A DNA stretch of 64,000 nucleotides from a virus. Position 1 is the stretch's first letter, and each line of letters opens with the position of its first letter. Positions 4,733 to 34,855 of the stretch are shown piece by piece. A model generated the notes under the pieces. That model was given only the letters and a program-made list of their open reading frames with translations. It was not told where the DNA came from and did no database searches. The translations under genes were made by a program, and so were the position numbers. Location: positions 62,001-126,000 of IMG/VR virus record IMGVR_UViG_3300042147_000020. One strand, 5' to 3'.

Positions 4733-6037
4733 TTAGATCCCGTTCGGGAACATTACCGCTGGCTGGTTAAAGCTTTGGGGTGTGTTGAAGAACCCCTGCG
4801 GTTGTGCCTGTTGAACGTAGCCGCCACGCGTTACTTGTTGTGGCTGCTGGAACTGTTGCTGCGGTTGGTTACGGAACAGCCCAGGTTGCTGGAACTGTTG
4901 TTGTTGCTTGAACAGCGCTTGCTGCTGTTGCAGAGCTGGGTTGTGCGAGACGACCGAGTTCCACGACAGACCAGAACCAGTGCTAGCAACAGGCGCTGGC
5001 GCTGGAGCAGGTTGCTGGGTGAAACCCGTTGGCGCTGGCTGTTCGTTCCATGGTGGAACAAACGCCGCCGGTTTGGCTTCGGACTCACGGTCAACCACAG
5101 CTTGTGCAAACTTGCTGGTGTCAACGTGTGGGTGCTGGTGCGGTTTTGCCTGAGTGGACTCAGCAGCTTCACCGGAATCGCCTTCGTTACCGGACAGCGA
5201 CGGGATCAGGTCACGATACTGGGCCAGATCAGCGATATGCTTCTCAAAACCCAACTCGATGTGCAGGTCCGCCGGGTTGTCCAAGTGTTTCTTGAACAGG
5301 TTAGTAACCTTGTTCAGTTTGCTGGCGATCTTCGCGTAGCTGGTCAGCAGTGCGTGCAGGTTCGGAGCAGCCAAGCTATTGCTACCGAAGGAGTAGGTTT
5401 CACCTTCAGCATCAGGTAGCACGTAGTTGAACAAGGCGGTGATGGCCTTCTTGTTCTTCAGGCTGTTCAGGTTTACGCCACAAGCGTAAGTACCTTCCGA
5501 CTTCAGTTGCTCGATCAGAGGGAAGTCCACTACGCACACGCGCTGGAACTTCTTACCCTTGTACTCGCCACCGCGCTTGACGTACATGTTGATCATGCGG
5601 TGTTCGCCGTCGATCGACACTACGTCCAGCAGTTTTTCCAGCTTGGTCAGAGTTTCTTCCTTGACGTTCGGGATCAGGTCGAGGAATTCATTCTGCGTTG
5701 GCGACAACTTCTTGTGGTAGTCGTGATCAACCGCGATGCCCATCAGCTCGGTCACCAAGCAGGTAGCCACGGTGGTCAGGCGGTTCAGGCAGGCGATCTT
5801 CAGTTTGCGGAACACTGGGGATTCGCCACGGATGATTGCTTCGGACAGTGGGTGGAACGCGAGGGTGTTCGCCCAGTCCGGATTCGCCAGCACGTCATGT
5901 ACTGGCAGAACCAGACGCTTGCCGCTCACTTGCACCGGAACTTTGTTGTTGCCGATCACGAAGCTGATCAAGTGGTTTTCATCGACCACGAAATTAACAG
6001 ACTTCAGGATCGACTGATACAACTCGATGATAGTCAT
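4733..6037 (-). CDS. phiKZ gp70-position protein with Gln-rich tail
   Basis: 434 aa, no recognised domain. Residues 1-270 look globular; the last 130 are low-complexity (PAPAP, runs of QQ, NQPQQQFQQPQ), ending FNQPAVMFPNGI. The start chosen is the ATG overlapping the stop of the upstream gene (ATGA) behind GGGAAGG; an in-frame ATG five codons earlier is possible. By order (gp68, gp69, gp70, then RNAP beta C-part) it corresponds to phiKZ gp70. The disordered Q-rich tail suggests a multivalent scaffold or RNA/protein-binding role, which is inference. Confidence 0.65.
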   Translation of the reverse strand: MTIIELYQSILKSVNFVVDENHLISFVIGNNKVPVQVSGKRLVLPVHDVLANPDWANTLAFHPLSEAIIRGESPVFRKLKIACLNRLTTVATCLVTELMGIAVDHDYHKKLSPTQNEFLDLIPNVKEETLTKLEKLLDVVSIDGEHRMINMYVKRGGEYKGKKFQRVCVVDFPLIEQLKSEGTYACGVNLNSLKNKKAITALFNYVLPDAEGETYSFGSNSLAAPNLHALLTSYAKIASKLNKVTNLFKKHLDNPADLHIELGFEKHIADLAQYRDLIPSLSGNEGDSGEAAESTQAKPHQHPHVDTSKFAQAVVDRESEAKPAAFVPPWNEQPAPTGFTQQPAPAPAPVASTGSGLSWNSVVSHNPALQQQQALFKQQQQFQQPGLFRNQPQQQFQQPQQVTRGGYVQQAQPQGFFNTPQSFNQPAVMFPNGI

Positions 6038-7560
6038 AGTTGACCTTCCCAAGGATTGTGGATGTTGCCGCCAACAGGTGGGACGACGAGATTATTGGAC
6101 TGTGCGTGTTGATGGTGTTGAGCCATCCCTTGTTGCACAGAGTGTTTGATGTCCAAGTTGTTGGCCATCTGATCGAAGTCCTTCACCAGGCCGAAGACGG
6201 CTTCTTGGTTATACGACATCACCGGTGCAGTCAGTGCATCAGCGAACCCAGTGAAGCAGTGAGGAGCCATTGTCCCACCATTCAAAGAGATGTTGACGTA
6301 CGTCTCACCGAACATGTCCACTTGAACAGACATGTTGAACTTGGTCATGCGGTTGTTCGACAACCCTTGCAACACGCTGCCGATCAGCCGTTGTTTGAAC
6401 ATCTCGATATACCGAGTCATGTCCATCTGAGCGAACGACAGGTAGTTCGGTGCGATGTCCACCACGTACTCACCACCGAGGGTATCGTTGGTTGCAGTGA
6501 AGTTCAGACCGATCAGCATCAGTTCCGACATGATTGCAGGAACTTCGCGGGCCACCGTAGTAGCCGCCATGCATTCAGGTGTTGCTGCTGCAAGGTTAGC
6601 GGTTTGACCAGCTTGGTGCAATTGCTGCACGTACTTGGATTCACCACCAGTCACAGCAGCGACGTGGTCGAGGCCAGGGCTAACCTGACACAGCGAACCG
6701 TACGTGATGCTACCGTCTTCGTTGAAGTTCAACGTACGGCAGATCGCATGGAACAGCGGATCTTCGTTGATCACCGACTCAGCCACGTTACCGATGGCGT
6801 ACGACATGGCTTCCGCAGGAGAGGACATGCCACCCATTGCGTTGGTAACCGAATCCCGATAGTTGCTCAGGACGGTAGACATGTAGACGTTGGTCAGCTC
6901 GTTGCTACGGCGAGACTTCTTCGGCAGCAAGTCTGCGAAGAGCAGACGACCATCGTTGTAAGGCTCAGTCCCGGACTGCATCGACACTTCCATAATGCTG
7001 AAGATGTCTTCTGGGCGGGTGGACATTGCCACTTCCGACTGGTCTTGGTTGAAGCTTGGGTTGTACTTACCGAACAGCAGGTGACTGGAATCAATCACCG
7101 AGGAACGAACCGCGTTGCCGTGACCAGCATCGTAAGTGCTGTGTTGCAGTGTCACGGTGTTATTGAAGAACAGCTTCATGGCTGGGTCGAATACGACCTG
7201 ATTGTTGTTGGTGCGGTGGTAGCCTGGGTAATCGGTGTAGCCCGTCACGTAGCTGATCAGGTTGGCACCCATCGCTTGGCTATGGACTTCCATCATGAAA
7301 CGCAGGCGCTGTTCGCCCCAACCGTTTGCAATCTGGATGTTGGTCATCAAGTCTGCCTTCGGACGCAGCAGTTGACCAGAGAACGGTGCCAGAACACCGG
7401 CGTTGATGTTACGACCGCCTTTGGTTACTTCTTGCAGGATCGACATGGACTGGAAGTCGATGTTGTCGCCTAGGTAGAACGGACGGAGGAACTGGTCGCC
7501 GTAAGTACCGGTTGGGCAGAACAACAACTTGGTAATCTGGAAGCTTGCACGAGGGTTCAT
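6034..7560 (-). CDS. phiKZ gp69-position protein
   Basis: 508 aa, no motif I can name. Well-folded composition, Met/Asn-rich, without membrane segments. Stop overlaps the next start (ATGA), so translation is coupled. Its place between the gp68- and gp70-like genes makes it the phiKZ gp69 equivalent. From memory, gp69 has been linked to protein import into the phage nucleus (Imp1/PicA). That link rests only on remembered synteny and needs a profile search. Confidence 0.6.
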   Translation of the reverse strand: MNPRASFQITKLLFCPTGTYGDQFLRPFYLGDNIDFQSMSILQEVTKGGRNINAGVLAPFSGQLLRPKADLMTNIQIANGWGEQRLRFMMEVHSQAMGANLISYVTGYTDYPGYHRTNNNQVVFDPAMKLFFNNTVTLQHSTYDAGHGNAVRSSVIDSSHLLFGKYNPSFNQDQSEVAMSTRPEDIFSIMEVSMQSGTEPYNDGRLLFADLLPKKSRRSNELTNVYMSTVLSNYRDSVTNAMGGMSSPAEAMSYAIGNVAESVINEDPLFHAICRTLNFNEDGSITYGSLCQVSPGLDHVAAVTGGESKYVQQLHQAGQTANLAAATPECMAATTVAREVPAIMSELMLIGLNFTATNDTLGGEYVVDIAPNYLSFAQMDMTRYIEMFKQRLIGSVLQGLSNNRMTKFNMSVQVDMFGETYVNISLNGGTMAPHCFTGFADALTAPVMSYNQEAVFGLVKDFDQMANNLDIKHSVQQGMAQHHQHAQSNNLVVPPVGGNIHNPWEGQL

Positions 7561-7590
7561 CTTTTCTTCGACCTTCTTTAGTCAGGGAGA

Positions 7591-9111
7591 TTAGGTTGGG
7601 ACGCGTTCGAGAATCAAGCGAGCCAACTGGTTCTTGATCTCAGCCGGAACGACCATGTCGCCGTTCACAACGTGCTTCGCTACATCTGGCAGCAACTCTT
7701 TAGGCAAGTTCAACGACCAATAGCACTTGGACATTTCGCTGGTCAGCAGGTTGATTGCACGGATAGCGACGTTGTTCTGACGATCCGACTGTGGTTTACC
7801 ACTCTGACGCTGGGCGTAAGGGTAGCGTTCCATCAAGGCTGCGATGTACTCTTTGGAGACGCGTGCACGGAAATCACCCGTGGTCAGTGCGTACTCTTCA
7901 TCGTAGACGGCAGGTTGGGCAGTCATCAGCGCTGCCAGTTCTTTGTAACCCCAGTGCCACAACAACGCTTGGGTTACCCCAATCGTGCGCAGTAGTGCTG
8001 GTTTGCTCAGGCTTGGGATAGCCCGTGCCGACAGCGAACGTGCCATTACCCACTGACACAAGGTCATGTGGTGTTGATCAACCCGCATGTTGGTCATCTG
8101 GATGGAAATCCCCACGAACCCTTCGACTAACTCGATTGGTACGGTTGGATCGACCTTTACCGCCATAGCAGTATAGTTCTCTGTATAAACAGACAGCATG
8201 ATGATGTCGCCGTTGGACACCTCTTGCTTGATCTTGTAGTTCTCAGCCGAAGACATGTTATCTTCTTCAGCCTTCTCCGCCGCATTGCGCTTTGGAATGA
8301 TGCTACCCGCTTTCCAGAAGTTCCGGTCGAGCGAGTTCAGGCTGGTGTCAATAGTGTGGAATACGTTGGAGATCACGCTGGAGTTGTTATCCTCCACGGT
8401 CACTTCACCAATACTCACCTTACGGACAATCACCTTTGCCAACAACCAGTCTGGCAATTCGGTAGATCCCAACGACTTGAACACGGCCCCGTTAGAGACT
8501 TTCTCCAGTTGTGCGTAGGAATCAATGTACACCCGCAGACGATCCATTGCTGGACAGTCGTAGATCCACGCTTCGCTGATCAGCGACATCGCGTACCATT
8601 CCTTGTAGTTGTTGCCAACTTCTCGGAAGATCTGTTCCACGTATTCGCCGAAGATTGGAACCATCGGACGGTGCGCTACCGACATCACACCCAACTGGTA
8701 GTAGTCGTCACGCAGATACGTTTTGTTTTGCGGCTTGTCGTCGTACTCGGTTTTGGTAGTCGTCGGGATTACTACCTTACCGTGCATCCGCATCCACGAG
8801 GTGAGGTCATCACTAGGGATACAGCCGTACATTTCCCGGACCAACTTGATCAGACGTTTCTTCATCCGATCTTTATCCGCTACAGTCTTGATGACTTCGT
8901 GGATTGCTACGTAGTGCGCCCAGATCGCATCCTGCTGGTGCGAAGGGAGAGATGCAAAGAATGCGTTGATCTGCGTGAACAGGTTCGGCAAGTCTTTGAA
9001 ATTGTTCCGACGATAGATAATCGAAACGCCCCAGTCCAGAAACTCATCGCCGTGCACGGTACGGAGAGTGGTGAGTTCGCTGGGCTTTTCACTGATGTTA
9101 TCAATACGCAT
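7591..9111 (-). CDS. candidate fifth subunit of the non-virion RNAP (phiKZ gp68 position)
   Basis: 506 aa. No conserved RNAP motif is visible. In phiKZ the fifth nvRNAP subunit gp68 (about 520 aa) lacks sequence similarity to cellular subunits and lies a few genes upstream of the beta C-part; this gene has the same position and size. Start set at the ATG behind AGGATAG rather than an in-frame TTG nine codons upstream. An early-type promoter lies about 30-55 nt upstream. Confidence 0.6.
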   Translation of the reverse strand: MRIDNISEKPSELTTLRTVHGDEFLDWGVSIIYRRNNFKDLPNLFTQINAFFASLPSHQQDAIWAHYVAIHEVIKTVADKDRMKKRLIKLVREMYGCIPSDDLTSWMRMHGKVVIPTTTKTEYDDKPQNKTYLRDDYYQLGVMSVAHRPMVPIFGEYVEQIFREVGNNYKEWYAMSLISEAWIYDCPAMDRLRVYIDSYAQLEKVSNGAVFKSLGSTELPDWLLAKVIVRKVSIGEVTVEDNNSSVISNVFHTIDTSLNSLDRNFWKAGSIIPKRNAAEKAEEDNMSSAENYKIKQEVSNGDIIMLSVYTENYTAMAVKVDPTVPIELVEGFVGISIQMTNMRVDQHHMTLCQWVMARSLSARAIPSLSKPALLRTIGVTQALLWHWGYKELAALMTAQPAVYDEEYALTTGDFRARVSKEYIAALMERYPYAQRQSGKPQSDRQNNVAIRAINLLTSEMSKCYWSLNLPKELLPDVAKHVVNGDMVVPAEIKNQLARLILERVPT

Positions 9112-19917: not shown

Positions 19918-19960
19918 AACAGCCAGGGCCGCGAAGCCCTGGCTGTTTAGCCTTTATGCC
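19918..19960. terminator. terminator with TTTATGCC tail
   Basis: AACAGCCAGGGC/GCCCTGGCTGTT 12-bp stem, then TAGCCTTTATGCCGC, between convergent genes. Confidence 0.85.
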
Positions 19961-22182
19961 GCTGGTGAGGCTTCGATGAAGTCCGATACAAGCTTGGTGT
20001 TATTGTCGTTAGACAGGAAAACGCCGAGTGATTCCAAAATCAGATAGAACGGACGCACAGTCGAGTACACGAGTTTACGGATGTTCATTGCAGACAGTAC
20101 TTCAGTCGGCAGGCCAGTCAGCTCCACCACATCTTTCGGCAACAGCAAAGTAGTCGCGTTAGGTTTCCCTTCGTACTGCGATGCTAGAGCTGCTTTGATG
20201 TGCGGGTCTTGAATACCTTCAATCCAACCAGCAATGGCTGTCTTGTTCGGTAGATCCAGCGAAACCTTGATTGCAGCGTACGGTGGCTTTGGGGCCTCGC
20301 CGTATTTATCACGGAACACACGTTCCCACAAGAGGTAGTGTTGATACGGTGATTGTCCAGCGTTGACGTAAGCGCCAGCATCTTTTACAGAAGCCCGAGC
20401 GAGGTACTTGGACTCAGCTCTCATCACCGAACTAATAATACCGTGTTCGATGTCAGCAACTTTCTGCATGATGTCGGTGATACGGATCTTTTGTCCAGCC
20501 ATCACGTTGTCCATGATACCACACATGGTGGCCGTCACTTCCTTCATGATGTTCGGTGGGCAGTTAGAGTCTTTGAGGTAAACCCCTTTGATCTCTTCTT
20601 CCAGCTCACTGAAGACGTTACCTTCTTTGGCAGCCTTGTAGGCGAAGTAGTGCTTAGCCATCGAAGTCAAACTGAAGACCGAGAATGCAAACTCGTTCTT
20701 CATAGCGAACACGTTGATCTTGTCCGGCACTACACCCAGCGTTGCGGACAGTTGAGCCAGAACGTGGATGATCGACTGAGTCGCCAGATACACCATGGTG
20801 TAGTTCACAGCAAAGGCTTCTTCGCTGAAGTCTACCTTACCACAGTACCACTGAACCCAGTTCTGTACGGTGAAGATCGTCGAGTCAGTGTCGGAGGTGA
20901 TGGCCACCTGACGCACAGAGTCACGAATCCAGGCTACCGAAGCAGGCATGTTGTCCGTTACCCAGAACGCGTTGATCAGGTAGACGTAGTCATTCAGCAC
21001 TTGGTGGATGTTCTTCACCGTAGCACCGATGATGCAGTAGTCATCAGGACGCTGTTCCAACAACTTACCCAGACCCAGACCACCCAGCTCGTTGGAGCAC
21101 AGTAGGCTCACGAACGCTTTGAGGTCGTTGTCCATAGCCTTGATGTAGGACTTGGCTTCTTCCAGCTCAATGCCGATTGTAGCCTTGGTGGACAGACGTG
21201 CCATGAACACACGCATCGGTAGGTCGTTGAACTTAGACAGGTGCCACATGTCACCGACGTAAGCAAACGCCGAGCGCTCGAGGTCATTCAGACCTTCTAC
21301 CAGCAAGCGGATCTCAGCGACTTGACGCTTGTTCACCCAGTAGTGTTGCGTGGAGTACACAATCAACTCCATCACTTCATCTACAGTGGGTGCCCGTAGA
21401 CCGTAAAGCTCCATGGTCTTTTTGATCAAGTCGTAATCAACGTGACCAATGATGCTGACAATGTTAGCCTTCACCACGTCTGGAGACCAGTAGTGTCGGT
21501 TACCGGCCAAGAACTTCTCGTTGTTAGCATTGCCCAAGCTGGTACCTACCCGACAGGTAGATGTCAGACTAGAGTGTGCAGACTTGTTGTGGAGGATCGT
21601 GGAAGCCGAAGCTTGACCGCCAGACAGACTGTTGTTCGCAATCTTGTACGTGGTCTGTTCGTTTTCCTTGAGGTCTTCCAGTTCACCCATGGTCGCCGCT
21701 TGACGATTCATGAAACGAGCTTGAACTGTGTCACCTGCTTTCAAGAACTCTTCAGCTTTGAGTTTGAACTCTTGGCCAGCCATCTTGGCTTCCAGACCTT
21801 CATGCTTCACCTTACCACGACCGACGATGTTGCCGGTGATGTATTCTGAGAGCAGGGAAGGTAGGACATCAGGGTGTTCGTAGACTGTCATGCTTGGTGC
21901 AAACAGCCAACGGTTCTGAATGATGTCTTTCAGGTACTGCGTGAAAGTGGTTTCATGTTGACCACGATCACCCACTTCATTGCGATGTAAGCAAAGTAGT
22001 GCAGGGTCGACTATTTCAAACTTCCCCCCAGGGCCAGTCTGACGCTGTACGTAAGCCACACAGTCTTCAATCGGTTTACCTGTACGTTTGCTTAGGAAAA
22101 TCGCCATGTCCCGTCGATAGTTCCCTACGACGTCCAGATCACGCTTATACGCGGACGCTGGCTTAACAAAATGGTTCTCCAT
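19954..22182 (-). CDS. divergent family-B DNA polymerase (palm/fingers)
   Basis: 742 aa. Motif B is visible as YKIANNSLSGG (the KxxxNSxYG equivalent, near residue 182) and motif C as ITSDTDSTIF (DTDS, near residue 427). A canonical motif A (DxxSLYP) and the exonuclease motifs are not evident, so they may be highly diverged or on a separate polypeptide. Its place a few genes from the shell-protein gene matches phiKZ gp44. Start behind TTAGGAGTTGTA. It would replicate phage DNA inside the nucleus with the SSB-like and Mre11-like proteins. Confidence 0.8.
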   Translation of the reverse strand: MENHFVKPASAYKRDLDVVGNYRRDMAIFLSKRTGKPIEDCVAYVQRQTGPGGKFEIVDPALLCLHRNEVGDRGQHETTFTQYLKDIIQNRWLFAPSMTVYEHPDVLPSLLSEYITGNIVGRGKVKHEGLEAKMAGQEFKLKAEEFLKAGDTVQARFMNRQAATMGELEDLKENEQTTYKIANNSLSGGQASASTILHNKSAHSSLTSTCRVGTSLGNANNEKFLAGNRHYWSPDVVKANIVSIIGHVDYDLIKKTMELYGLRAPTVDEVMELIVYSTQHYWVNKRQVAEIRLLVEGLNDLERSAFAYVGDMWHLSKFNDLPMRVFMARLSTKATIGIELEEAKSYIKAMDNDLKAFVSLLCSNELGGLGLGKLLEQRPDDYCIIGATVKNIHQVLNDYVYLINAFWVTDNMPASVAWIRDSVRQVAITSDTDSTIFTVQNWVQWYCGKVDFSEEAFAVNYTMVYLATQSIIHVLAQLSATLGVVPDKINVFAMKNEFAFSVFSLTSMAKHYFAYKAAKEGNVFSELEEEIKGVYLKDSNCPPNIMKEVTATMCGIMDNVMAGQKIRITDIMQKVADIEHGIISSVMRAESKYLARASVKDAGAYVNAGQSPYQHYLLWERVFRDKYGEAPKPPYAAIKVSLDLPNKTAIAGWIEGIQDPHIKAALASQYEGKPNATTLLLPKDVVELTGLPTEVLSAMNIRKLVYSTVRPFYLILESLGVFLSNDNNTKLVSDFIEASPAA

Positions 22183-26683: not shown

Positions 26684-26712
26684 GATTCTAACCTTTCTGA
26701 AGGTTTGTTCAA

Positions 26713-26738
26713 TTGGATAATATAGGTCTCAAACTAAT
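26713..26738 (-). promoter_or_regulatory. early-type promoter (TTTGAGACCTATATTAT)
   Basis: Minus-strand TAGTTTGAGACCTATATTATCC, 30-55 nt upstream of the first small cluster gene. Likely drives the whole 23.4-26.7 kb block. Confidence 0.75.
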
Positions 26739-26744
26739 TAGGAT

Positions 26745-27670
26745 GACCCCTATGCCCTTCTACTCTATACTATCTGGGGTTGGTGTGAACTTATACACGG
26801 AGTCGCTCACAGAGGCTCACAGAGGGCATAAAGCCCCTCACCGGATAACCAGCAAGGGGCTCGATGCTTTACACTGCCGTCGGTCGGCTATCTGTGAGTG
26901 GAGTCAGGTCCCCTCTCGGCCAACCTAGTGGGGTCGGAGTAGCCAGGCGTGTTTTCCCACCGAGCGCCCCTGACGGCGACAAGGATTACGGCTAGAACGT
27001 ACGCACCCCTCCAAATGCCCGGCTCGGCTGGTAAAGGTAGGATTCCAATGCGTACGCGATTTACTTAAAGTAAACCCCCTAATGAATTACCCTGTGTCTG
27101 GCCAGACCAAAGGAGCAACACATTAGAGGCTGCACTTTACCAGACGGCTGCCATATAGAGGCTGCGCACCGGTTTGTTACAACTTGAGCCCTTCGCGGGG
27201 GCCCCGTACCTTTTGTCTTACTGGTCGAGTGCGAGTCAACCTATACGACTTCCTGTTATACGTCCGGTTATCCAAGGTTAGGTTGCGGACGCCCCACCCT
27301 TGCCGGGCAGAGATACGTGATCTCCCGCGCTCGCAGGAGACGACGATTTAAGACCCCTGATCCTACCGGCTCTCTGGACAGAGTAGTCACTAGGTTTTGA
27401 CCGTGGTCAGGGGAATTCAAGCTACCCTCTCTCTTAGAGCTGTCTACACTTACACAATGACTCGGGTTAGACCCAAGGTCGTGATTTGGGGTTTGGTCCT
27501 AAAAGTAGTAACCATTCCTACGACAGACAGGGGATTAGCCTGTGAGGGTACAACTTAGGGTGAGTGGGAAAGCCTAAACCTTCCAGACAGTAGTGTGACC
27601 CGACGGGTTGGAGTCACCTGTCCTAGTGGGTAGATAAAGTCCACTTGGCGTTACCGCTACACTCACTTGG
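26745..27670 (-). ncRNA. candidate large structured non-coding RNA (about 0.9 kb)
   Basis: About 925 bases without a credible ORF, yet full of complementary segments: CGTACGCA (26998) with TGCGTACG (27049), TATGCCCT (26751) with AGGGCATA (26823), AGCCCCT (26832) with AGGGGCT (26855), CTAATG (27079) with CATTAG (27121), CCCCTGA (27354) with TCAGGGG (27407). A coaxial GACAG-GTGAC (27586) pairs with GTCAC-CTGTC (27613). TAGAGGCTGC is repeated at 27124 and 27157. Size and position beside a phage tRNA cluster recall the GOLLD and ROOL giant RNAs; I did not recognise their consensus. Strand is inferred from the neighbours. Confidence 0.55.
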
Positions 27671-27673
27671 GGT

Positions 27674-28126
27674 TTAACGACCGCACCAACTCTTCTTGGT
27701 GCCACCGTCGTACGCAACTGCAAGACCATTCTTGATCAGCAGTTGTGCGATGTCTATGTCATCCACCATCACTGTGGAGACGATGCGGAAGTACTTATCA
27801 CGTTCAGGGTTCACCAGTGTAATCTGGTTGGCTGCGTCGATGTACTTCTTCAGCAACAGTCGGGCTTGACGTGCTTTGGCTTTCTCAGCTTCTTGCTCAG
27901 CGACTACTTTACAAGTGCTACGCATTTCAGGAGTATCAATCCCAGCCAAGCGAATCCCGATGTTCTTTCCGAAGAGGTCAGGAACCTCAGGGATGTTCAC
28001 ATAGAGAGTATCGCCATCGTAAATCCTAACCACTTGGGACGACTTCAGGTTGAAGTCCCCGAAGGCAAAGACGCTGAATGAAGCCAGCATCAGTACCAAT
28101 GTTGCCACAATGTTTCTAACCTTCAT
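27674..28126 (-). CDS. secreted staphylococcal-nuclease-like (SNase/TNase) endonuclease
   Basis: 150 aa from the ATG behind TTGGAGTTTAGT; an in-frame ATG four codons earlier lacks an RBS. A signal peptide is clear (MKVRNIVATLVLMLASFSVFAFG). The SNase core follows: VVRIYDGDTLYV (calcium-site Asp39), IRLAGIDTPE (Arg59, Asp64, Glu67), then RDKYFRIVSTVMVDD and DIAQLLIKNGLAVAYDGG. Two Cys (72, 148) could form a disulfide. Ca-dependent cleavage of DNA/RNA in the periplasm or after release is expected. It lies between two non-coding RNA segments. Confidence 0.85.
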   Translation of the reverse strand: MKVRNIVATLVLMLASFSVFAFGDFNLKSSQVVRIYDGDTLYVNIPEVPDLFGKNIGIRLAGIDTPEMRSTCKVVAEQEAEKAKARQARLLLKKYIDAANQITLVNPERDKYFRIVSTVMVDDIDIAQLLIKNGLAVAYDGGTKKSWCGR

Positions 28127-28139
28127 ACTAAACTCCAAG

Positions 28140-28385
28140 GGATATAGGACATACTATCCTTGGGTCGTCTGTAGGCTTCTTAAAGGGTGCCTTCTCTCTA
28201 CGTCGGGAAGGTTTATGTTCCGTTGCGCAGTACCATGACCTCGTTTGACCGAGAGAAGACATTACTCTTTACCCCATTAGTTCCCCTAGTTCTGATTACC
28301 CTGCGCGTCAGGTCGGTCGTAACTAGGGTAGGCGCGACAATGGCGCCTCGTTTTACTTCTGTTCCCTAAGGAACCTTCTAATGGG
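28140..28385 (-). ncRNA. structured RNA segment abutting a tRNA-like gene
   Basis: About 245 bases without an ORF. CTAATGGG (28378) pairs exactly with CCCATTAG (28273), enclosing AACTAGGG (28321)/CCCTAGTT (28284), AGGCGC (28330)/GCGCCT (28343) and a GTTCC/GGAAC tetraloop hairpin, a multi-helix junction. Further on, GAGAGAAG (28251) pairs with CTTCTCTC (28191). The junction begins directly at the 3' end of the tRNA-like gene, so both may be one RNA. Confidence 0.55.
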
Positions 28386-28510
28386 CATCCCCGACAAGCC
28401 TCGAACTTGCGACCTCCAGCGCTCCTCTCGTTAAACCATCTTCACTACTGGAGAGTTAATGATGGAACTTGAGGTTGGACTGGTGCTCTAACCGACTGAG
28501 CTACGGGGAC
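28386..28510 (-). tRNA. tRNA-like gene with a 58-nt anticodon-loop region
   Basis: Cloverleaf elements are all present: acceptor GTCCCCG/CGGGGAT, D stem GCTC/GAGC with an AGTCGGTTA loop, anticodon stem CCAGT/GCTGG, variable AGGTC, and T arm GCAAG-TTCGAGG-CTTGT. Instead of a 7-nt anticodon loop there are 58 nt with nested pairings (CCTC/GAGG, CCATC/GATGG). No U33 or anticodon can be assigned. CCA is not encoded (GCCCAT follows). It could be an intron-bearing, decoy or degenerate tRNA. Confidence 0.6.
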
Positions 28511-30777: not shown

Positions 30778-31602
30778 TTAACGACGGTTGTAGTTGATGC
30801 GCTTAACTTCAAGTTCAGCGAACAAGTCCATCGGGTAATCGTCTGGCAGGTGAGCAGCAACTGTAGAGTTGGTGGTCTGCGGGTCGATCACAATGCTGAA
30901 CGGCAGCCGAACGAGGTTGCCCAGTGCACCGTTGATGATGATGTCGCGGTTGATCTTGGTCGCATTGCTGAATCGGGCCGCAACCTCTACACCGTCTTTG
31001 GTAACGATGCGCAGTAACTTGATCGAGTCGATGCTGTCAGTGGAGTCAATCGCTACACCACTGGCTCCGATCAGGCCGAACAGAGACTTGCGATCGCCGT
31101 CCTTCAACGGGAGACGGATCACCGAAGTGTCGCTCACGATGGTAGGTTCGTGTAGGATCTGCCAGTCTTCAGCCAGTTGATCCGATTGTGCCGGAGTCCA
31201 CGGGGTGAATACGTTCTGTGCAGTCTTCATGCCGACCCATGGTGCGAGTGTTGGACACTCGTTCTCACCGGGCTTGTAACCGACAGTTCCACAACCCACG
31301 TCGTAATGACCAGGCTGAACCATTACCAACCACATACCTTGACCATTCCACGAAGGACGCGTAACACGCTTGCCTTGCTTCAGGGCTTCGATGGCTAACC
31401 CGAAGGTCAGAGAATCGCACGGACGGTAGCTGTCCTCGAACACGGCTTTAGGCGACCAAGACTGGTGACCGTTGTCGTATTCCACAAGGTAGCCTTCATC
31501 GGCACCGTTTTCGTCAGCAGGTAACTCCCAGCCTTTGAGTTGGTTGTAGTCCAACCGAGACATCGGAGTTCCGATAACCTTCTTGGTACCAATGTAGTTC
31601 AT
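30778..31602 (-). CDS. Tad2 (DUF2829) anti-Thoeris domain fusion protein
   Basis: 274 aa in three parts. 1-60 (YIGTKKVIGTPMSRLDYN, GWELPADENGADEGYLVEY, SWSPKAVFEDSYRP) is a segment often found before this domain in phages. 64-150 is a Tad2/DUF2829 domain: LTFGLAIEALKQGKRVTRPSWNG, MWLVMV, APWVGMKTAQN, FTPWTPAQSDQLAEDW. 151-274 is an unrecognised beta-rich extension. Tad2 proteins sequester the gcADPR signal of the Thoeris defence system. Activity of this fusion is inferred; the added C-terminal domain is unexplained. Start behind GGTAGATAAC. Confidence 0.8.
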   Translation of the reverse strand: MNYIGTKKVIGTPMSRLDYNQLKGWELPADENGADEGYLVEYDNGHQSWSPKAVFEDSYRPCDSLTFGLAIEALKQGKRVTRPSWNGQGMWLVMVQPGHYDVGCGTVGYKPGENECPTLAPWVGMKTAQNVFTPWTPAQSDQLAEDWQILHEPTIVSDTSVIRLPLKDGDRKSLFGLIGASGVAIDSTDSIDSIKLLRIVTKDGVEVAARFSNATKINRDIIINGALGNLVRLPFSIVIDPQTTNSTVAAHLPDDYPMDLFAELEVKRINYNRR

Positions 31603-34819: not shown

Positions 34820-34855
34820 CTATTCACTTGGGTAATATAGATCTGAAACTTATTT
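34820..34855 (-). promoter_or_regulatory. early-type promoter (TTTCAGATCTATATTAC)
   Basis: Minus-strand GTTTCAGATCTATATTACCC followed by AAGTGAATAGGATAG. Almost identical downstream bases occur in the copy at 43601. Confidence 0.75.

Follow-up and report, generated by a model that had tools for sequence, protein, structure and literature searches.

What is encoded in the gene-free, hairpin-rich interval beside the tRNA island of this phage? The window analyzed here is a 64-kb stretch of a 238.8-kb virus record. An earlier note had described positions 26745-27670 as lacking genes and dense in hairpins, and had proposed a large RNA that recalls GOLLD and ROOL while matching neither. The product of 19954-22182 is a DNA polymerase of the divergent family B type that phiKZ-like phages carry (PF20286, E 1e-242), with 40-44% identity to LucasX, FLC9 and phiKZ-type phages. 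From this match we place the window phage among the jumbo phages, as a relative of the nucleus-forming phiKZ group.

All genes flanking the interval and all eight tRNAs (ARAGORN) are on the minus strand, with the tRNAs lying within 7 kb of the putative RNA. Read in the direction of transcription, the tRNA island comes first, followed by the nuclease gene, the RNA, an early-promoter motif, an operon whose small proteins have no known domains, and the DNA polymerase gene; by position, the RNA is the final element of the tRNA island. The gene directly upstream (27674-28138, minus strand) encodes an SNase-like nuclease (PF00565, E 2.7e-11). No open reading frame in the interval is common to the relatives described below, and this, together with the minus-strand flanking genes, bears out the description of the interval as gene-free. 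As judged from the reading frames, the RNA makes no protein.

Folding energy demonstrated that the hairpin density is above chance on the minus strand only. The 984 nt from the nuclease stop codon to the next start codon fold with z -3.91 on the minus strand (dinucleotide shuffles; 0 of 20 as good), whereas the plus strand of the same 984 nt gives z +0.54, no better than its shuffles. A separate run on positions 26817-27673 gave z -3.1, and three protein genes of the window gave -0.7 to -1.0. While the interval of the earlier note is indeed gene-free and hairpin-rich, its extent had to be refined: the ornate RNA body is placed on the minus strand at approximately 26828-27673 (sense fold z -3.9), about 846 nt in the window phage with both ends inferred, and positions 26690-26745 are part of the next operon. 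That note had named free energy against shuffled controls and covariation among the checks on which its proposal could fail. The minus strand is better than its shuffles, and covariation is strong across seven phages.

Six further jumbo-phage contigs have a homologue of the RNA at the same locus, and all seven sequences are metagenomic. Four of these contigs (L003, L008, L006 and L002) were found by nuclease and short RNA-pattern searches. A DNA-polymerase alignment search gave 80 loci, and a covariance model of one domain (R1) found the two most distant members, L035 (E 1e-28) and L033 (E 3e-26), which had been held out of it, with the matches 4-7 kb from the polymerase gene. BLASTN also detects both, at 70-76% identity, and the R1 matches thus draw on sequence as well as structure. 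Among 37 whole phiKZ-like records, which include more distant relatives, R1 matched only L033 and L035; the L034 contig stops short of the locus. The core of the RNA is approximately 650 nt in L002, L033 and L035, and the window phage, L003, L006 and L008 carry approximately 200 nt beyond it. A BLASTN search with the RNA as query gave no real match among 50,697 named phages, one run matching tRNA-Leu only, and an RNA pattern scan of bacterial and archaeal genomes found none. A neighboring protein used alone as query recovered no relatives, and a second protein found none among named phages. Contig L004, a nuclease relative, was set aside as lacking the neighborhood of the RNA.

Comparison of the seven sequences shows a predicted fold of at least 18 helices with several multi-branched domains and one pseudoknot, in which invariant loops sit on covarying stems. 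In a hand model of 18 helices including the pseudoknot, with arms chosen by eye for each sequence, 604 of 622 pair cells (97%) are canonical across all seven sequences, with compensatory double changes in 49 of 89 pairs. When arms were swapped between phages, hand-model pairing was 80.4% (maximum 86%). The alignment based on R1, covering a 146-nt domain in all seven sequences, has 96.6% canonical pair cells, with 17 of 43 pairs changed on both sides. Sliding the partner by 1-3 columns lowers pairing to 34-49%, and none of 500 shuffles reached the observed pairing or double-change values, although the sequences are related and such shuffle counts are not probabilities. For the three most divergent members, aligned without bias by MAFFT, RNAalifold gave z -11.5 against column shuffles, and the consensus fold of all seven gave z -10.5 against shuffled columns. 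MAFFT misaligned P3/P4 and P17 between subgroups, and the model-based alignment and the hand helix table were therefore used. Because the arms were picked by hand and the sequences are related, we rely on the combined evidence and above all on the two held-out members.

The features of the fold are all on the minus strand. In Domain 1 (27559-27666), helix P1 (GUGAGYG/CRCUCAC) encloses P3, P4a/P4b and P5, with compensatory changes in P1, P3, P4b and P5; P3 has a conserved loop containing AUCUAC. The "coaxial double helix" of the earlier note (27586-27622) is exactly P4a/P4b. P4a is invariant, a 9-nt loop (CWMCCCGUC) is conserved, and P4b is backed by covariation, the inner stem being GUGACUC/GGGUCAC in the window, GUCC/GGAC in L002 and L035, and GCCC/GGGC in L006 and L008. 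Domain 2 (27423-27550), the multi-branched P6-P11 region captured by R1, holds the 17 double-change pairs given above. Within it, P6 reads UACCCUC/GAGGGUA, UGCUUUC/GAAAGCA or AGCUUUC/GAAAGCU, and P10a reads CAGGU/ACCAG, CAUGG/CCGUG, CAGGA/UCCUG, CACGA/UUGUG or CAGAU/AUCUG.

Further toward the 3' end, the loop of the pseudoknot hairpin PK (27246-27290) is predicted to pair with a segment just downstream. Loop and partner are CCUUA/UAAGG in L002, CUUCC/GGAAG in L033 and L035, UCCUG/CAGGA in L003 and L008, and CUUG/CAGG in the window. Hairpin P13 (27223-27241), with the conserved loop CUCGCA, shows double changes in all four tabulated pairs over seven sequences, and P14 (27186-27205), with the conserved loop GCGAA, in five of six pairs (GAGGGA/UCCCUC versus GGGCCC/GGGCUC). 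The long stem P17 and P18 (27058-27129) come from the hand helix table and from matches to a second model, R2. As read from the sequences, P17c, an extension of P17, and P18 (27058-27135, minus strand) are mutually exclusive and both seemingly retained, also in L002, L003 and L040; in L002 they are AAAUGC/GCAUUU and GAAGCA/UGCUUC. The pair may form a conformational switch.

These results bear on whether the interval is RNA at all. Inverted repeats occur in DNA sites too, and the RNA is known here from its sequence, so that a DNA-level element (an origin, a packaging or recombination site), a degenerate element or chance hairpins deserve mention. Covariation extends over many different helices, the pseudoknot included, and involves G-U pairs, and stability is strongly biased toward one strand. 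Both observations speak against all such explanations, which we regard as highly improbable. By the comparative evidence, the RNA is real and very probably a working one.

The 5' end was set just 3' of the nuclease stop codon. In L033 and L035, P1 begins 3-4 nt past the encoded CCA of a tRNA-Leu, and tRNA 3' processing could therefore free the 5' end. The proposed 3' end is a terminal hairpin (26828-26861, minus strand), either terminator-like or a processing stem. Its position is conserved and its stem differs in each relative, and in every case UUUAUGCC, or a close variant, comes next. A simple terminator scan did not list this hairpin, and its U tract is short or weak.

Beyond this end, and outside the RNA, lies a phiKZ-type early-promoter motif of the downstream operon (CTATATTAT, 26717-26725, minus strand). 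The phiKZ early-promoter motif is TATATTAC. Jumbo phages of the phiKZ-like kind carry an AT-rich early-promoter motif of approximately 10 nt centered near -10 (PMC7598289). The form CTATATTAY occurs nine times in the whole genome, always on the minus strand and never on the plus strand, with five copies in the window against 0.19 expected. The strand bias is similar in relatives, and a longer stretch around the motif, AGACCTATATTAC....GTGAA, recurs among the copies upstream of start codons (ATGs). The nine minus-strand copies mark out the early transcription units of the window phage. In the downstream operon, the first gene has its Shine-Dalgarno sequence inside a leader hairpin (AACCUUCAGAAAGGUU / CCUUCAGAAAGG, 26690-26705, minus strand); the hairpin is near-invariant in all seven loci and retained even where that first gene is lost (L003 and L008).

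Since the motif copy at 26717-26725 lies between the RNA and the downstream gene, the RNA and the downstream operon are probably separate transcripts. This matters for the reading in which the RNA acts in cis, as a leader controlling the downstream early operon or a 3' UTR controlling the upstream nuclease mRNA. The RNA does always lie just upstream of the same small-protein operon, and in four of seven loci it follows directly on the nuclease stop codon. However, the early-promoter motif separates RNA and operon in seven of seven loci, no nuclease gene lies beside the RNA in L008, L033 and L035, and three loci that lack the RNA (L036, L048 and L051) keep the same promoter and short hairpin before that gene block. 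We consider a cis-acting leader or 3' UTR quite unlikely. The nuclease was likewise ruled out as a partner of the RNA, which can dispense with it because it is missing beside the RNA in the same three phages.

Upstream, another motif copy (34832-34840) precedes the tRNA island. A strong terminator-like hairpin with eight T (34354-34333) comes just after this motif, the only upstream one, and the operon link between RNA and tRNAs is therefore only putative.

Few natural RNA classes are so large and elaborate, GOLLD and ROOL being the phage ones. Both are phage-borne, lie near tRNA islands and are about the size of the window RNA (PMC12286853). GOLLD (RF02032) is a phage or prophage RNA, often >800 nt, with many helices (PMC12286853). 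Its association with phages and tRNAs is shared here, as tRNA-Leu abuts the RNA in L033 and L035. Descriptions of GOLLD place its conservation in the 3' half, whereas in the window RNA domains P1-P11, on the 5' side, are no less conserved. ROOL (RF03087) is an RNA of approximately 580-660 nt near tRNA islands in phages, with pseudoknots and no known protein partner, to which the core length in L002, L033 and L035 and the single covarying pseudoknot may be compared. OLE is also ornate, approximately 600 nt and supported by covariation, but is bacterial, from Gram-positive extremophiles (PMC9723947). The window RNA has the general marks of a large ornate non-coding RNA, being hundreds of nucleotides long, with many covariation-supported helices and no conserved open reading frame.

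Despite these likenesses, an Rfam cmscan of three members of the family at E <= 5 matched no family, GOLLD, ROOL, OLE and introns included. The GOLLD model found nothing in five phage records at E <= 10. A ROOL family search, run with no working positive control, gave no match, and the ROOL negative is thus that of the cmscan. The RNA could still be a divergent GOLLD or ROOL member invisible to current Rfam models. Size range, phage origin, tRNA adjacency and many pseudoknotted helices would fit, and a tRNA can lie inside GOLLD much as one abuts the RNA of this family in two phages. Given the empty cmscan and GOLLD model searches, we think such membership unlikely. The suggestion of an RNA that resembles GOLLD and ROOL and matches neither thus agrees with the covariance models, and that of a new class of large ornate phage RNA is supported by fold energy, covariation and the lack of an Rfam match.

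The same searches address the reading as a mobile-element RNA such as a self-splicing intron or retron, for which one could cite the large, ornate and size-variable RNA and the habit of nuclease genes to travel with introns. No group I or II intron or other Rfam intron family was matched, no gene is interrupted, and the RNA is intergenic at a fixed locus in seven of seven phages; the nuclease gene is outside the fold and dispensable. Such an element is barely credible here.

A coding sequence, an intron or a simple leader would each fit poorly. We propose a new family of large structured phage RNA, and consider it likely that these are previously unrecorded ornate RNAs that are linked to tRNA islands and act in trans. 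On this proposal, the minus strand at approximately 26828-27673 would encode a large folded non-coding RNA transcribed together with the tRNA island. In L033 and L035, where a tRNA comes first, tRNA 3'-end processing would release the 5' end of the RNA; where the nuclease gene intervenes, some other cleavage would do so. The 3' end would be the terminal hairpin. GOLLD and ROOL have recently been shown to form RNA-only cages, a homo-oligomeric nanocage in the case of GOLLD. The window RNA would accumulate as a stable particle, RNA-only or with protein, and a trans-acting RNA or RNP particle is the most likely form of action. As suspected for GOLLD and ROOL, it might serve takeover of tRNA or ribosome function in infection, although this role is a guess from analogy.

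If correct, the proposal would add a third, independent family to the phage RNAs associated with tRNA islands, suggesting that such RNAs solve a recurring problem of infection. It would also mean that phiKZ-like phages, which are known for the nucleus they build and for having RNA polymerases of their own, possess a large structured RNA.

Several other phiKZ-like phages have large, strongly folding gene-poor stretches at the same slot, and we treat these candidate RNAs as leads rather than results. The first, L052:5000-5475 (plus strand) and relatives, has z -4.9 and a consensus fold 8.9 SD better than shuffled, and overlaps in part a conserved small reading frame. Burkholderia phage FLC9 (L114), an isolated phage, carries a candidate of this type at 7080-7592 (minus strand, 75% identity) in an unannotated gap of its genome. 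The FLC9/L052 candidate has the same place in related jumbo phages, with a PhuZ-like gene on one side and the early small-protein operon on the other, and like the window RNA it is conserved with a strong consensus fold. In contrast to the window RNA, it has no tRNAs beside it. The two show no similarity in sequence or by model, and a homologous origin of the FLC9 candidate is unsupported, as neither R1 nor R2 matches. FLC9 nevertheless offers a culturable phage for a direct look at a large RNA in the same slot.

In L040, an AT-rich non-coding stretch of 470 nt (5019-5490, plus strand; z -5.3 to -5.5) contains a P17/P18-like motif followed by a strong terminator and an early promoter. Its match to R2 (17.1 bits, E 1.3e-4 over 1 kb) is lost among 1.2 Mb, and the likeness is suggestive only of a distant homologue of the window RNA. 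The gene-poor stretch at the same slot in L068 has z -4.5. It is conceivable, and we put it forward tentatively, that it is common for nucleus-forming, phiKZ-like phages to have a large RNA machine in a single slot before the early gene block near the DNA polymerase, drawn from at least two sequence-unrelated or extremely diverged families (that of the window, that of FLC9/L052, and perhaps L040 and L068), in which case RNA-based particles might have a general role in infection.

The tRNA island has other features of its own. A protein with a Tad2-like (anti-Thoeris) domain is encoded within it at 30778-31602 (minus strand; PF11195, E 7.5e-23). At 28386-28510 (minus strand) is a tRNA-like element (Rfam tRNA, 45 bits) with approximately 57 extra nt in the anticodon arm. 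The five close relatives all retain its acceptor stem and T arm, and the anticodon arm of L002 is a stem capped by UUCG, with no anticodon loop. Directly after this element is a non-coding module of approximately 215 nt (28139-28385, minus strand; fold z -3.2), strongly conserved in all five close relatives. A tRNA-Ala splits the module in L002, and in L008 its counterpart continues directly into the large RNA.
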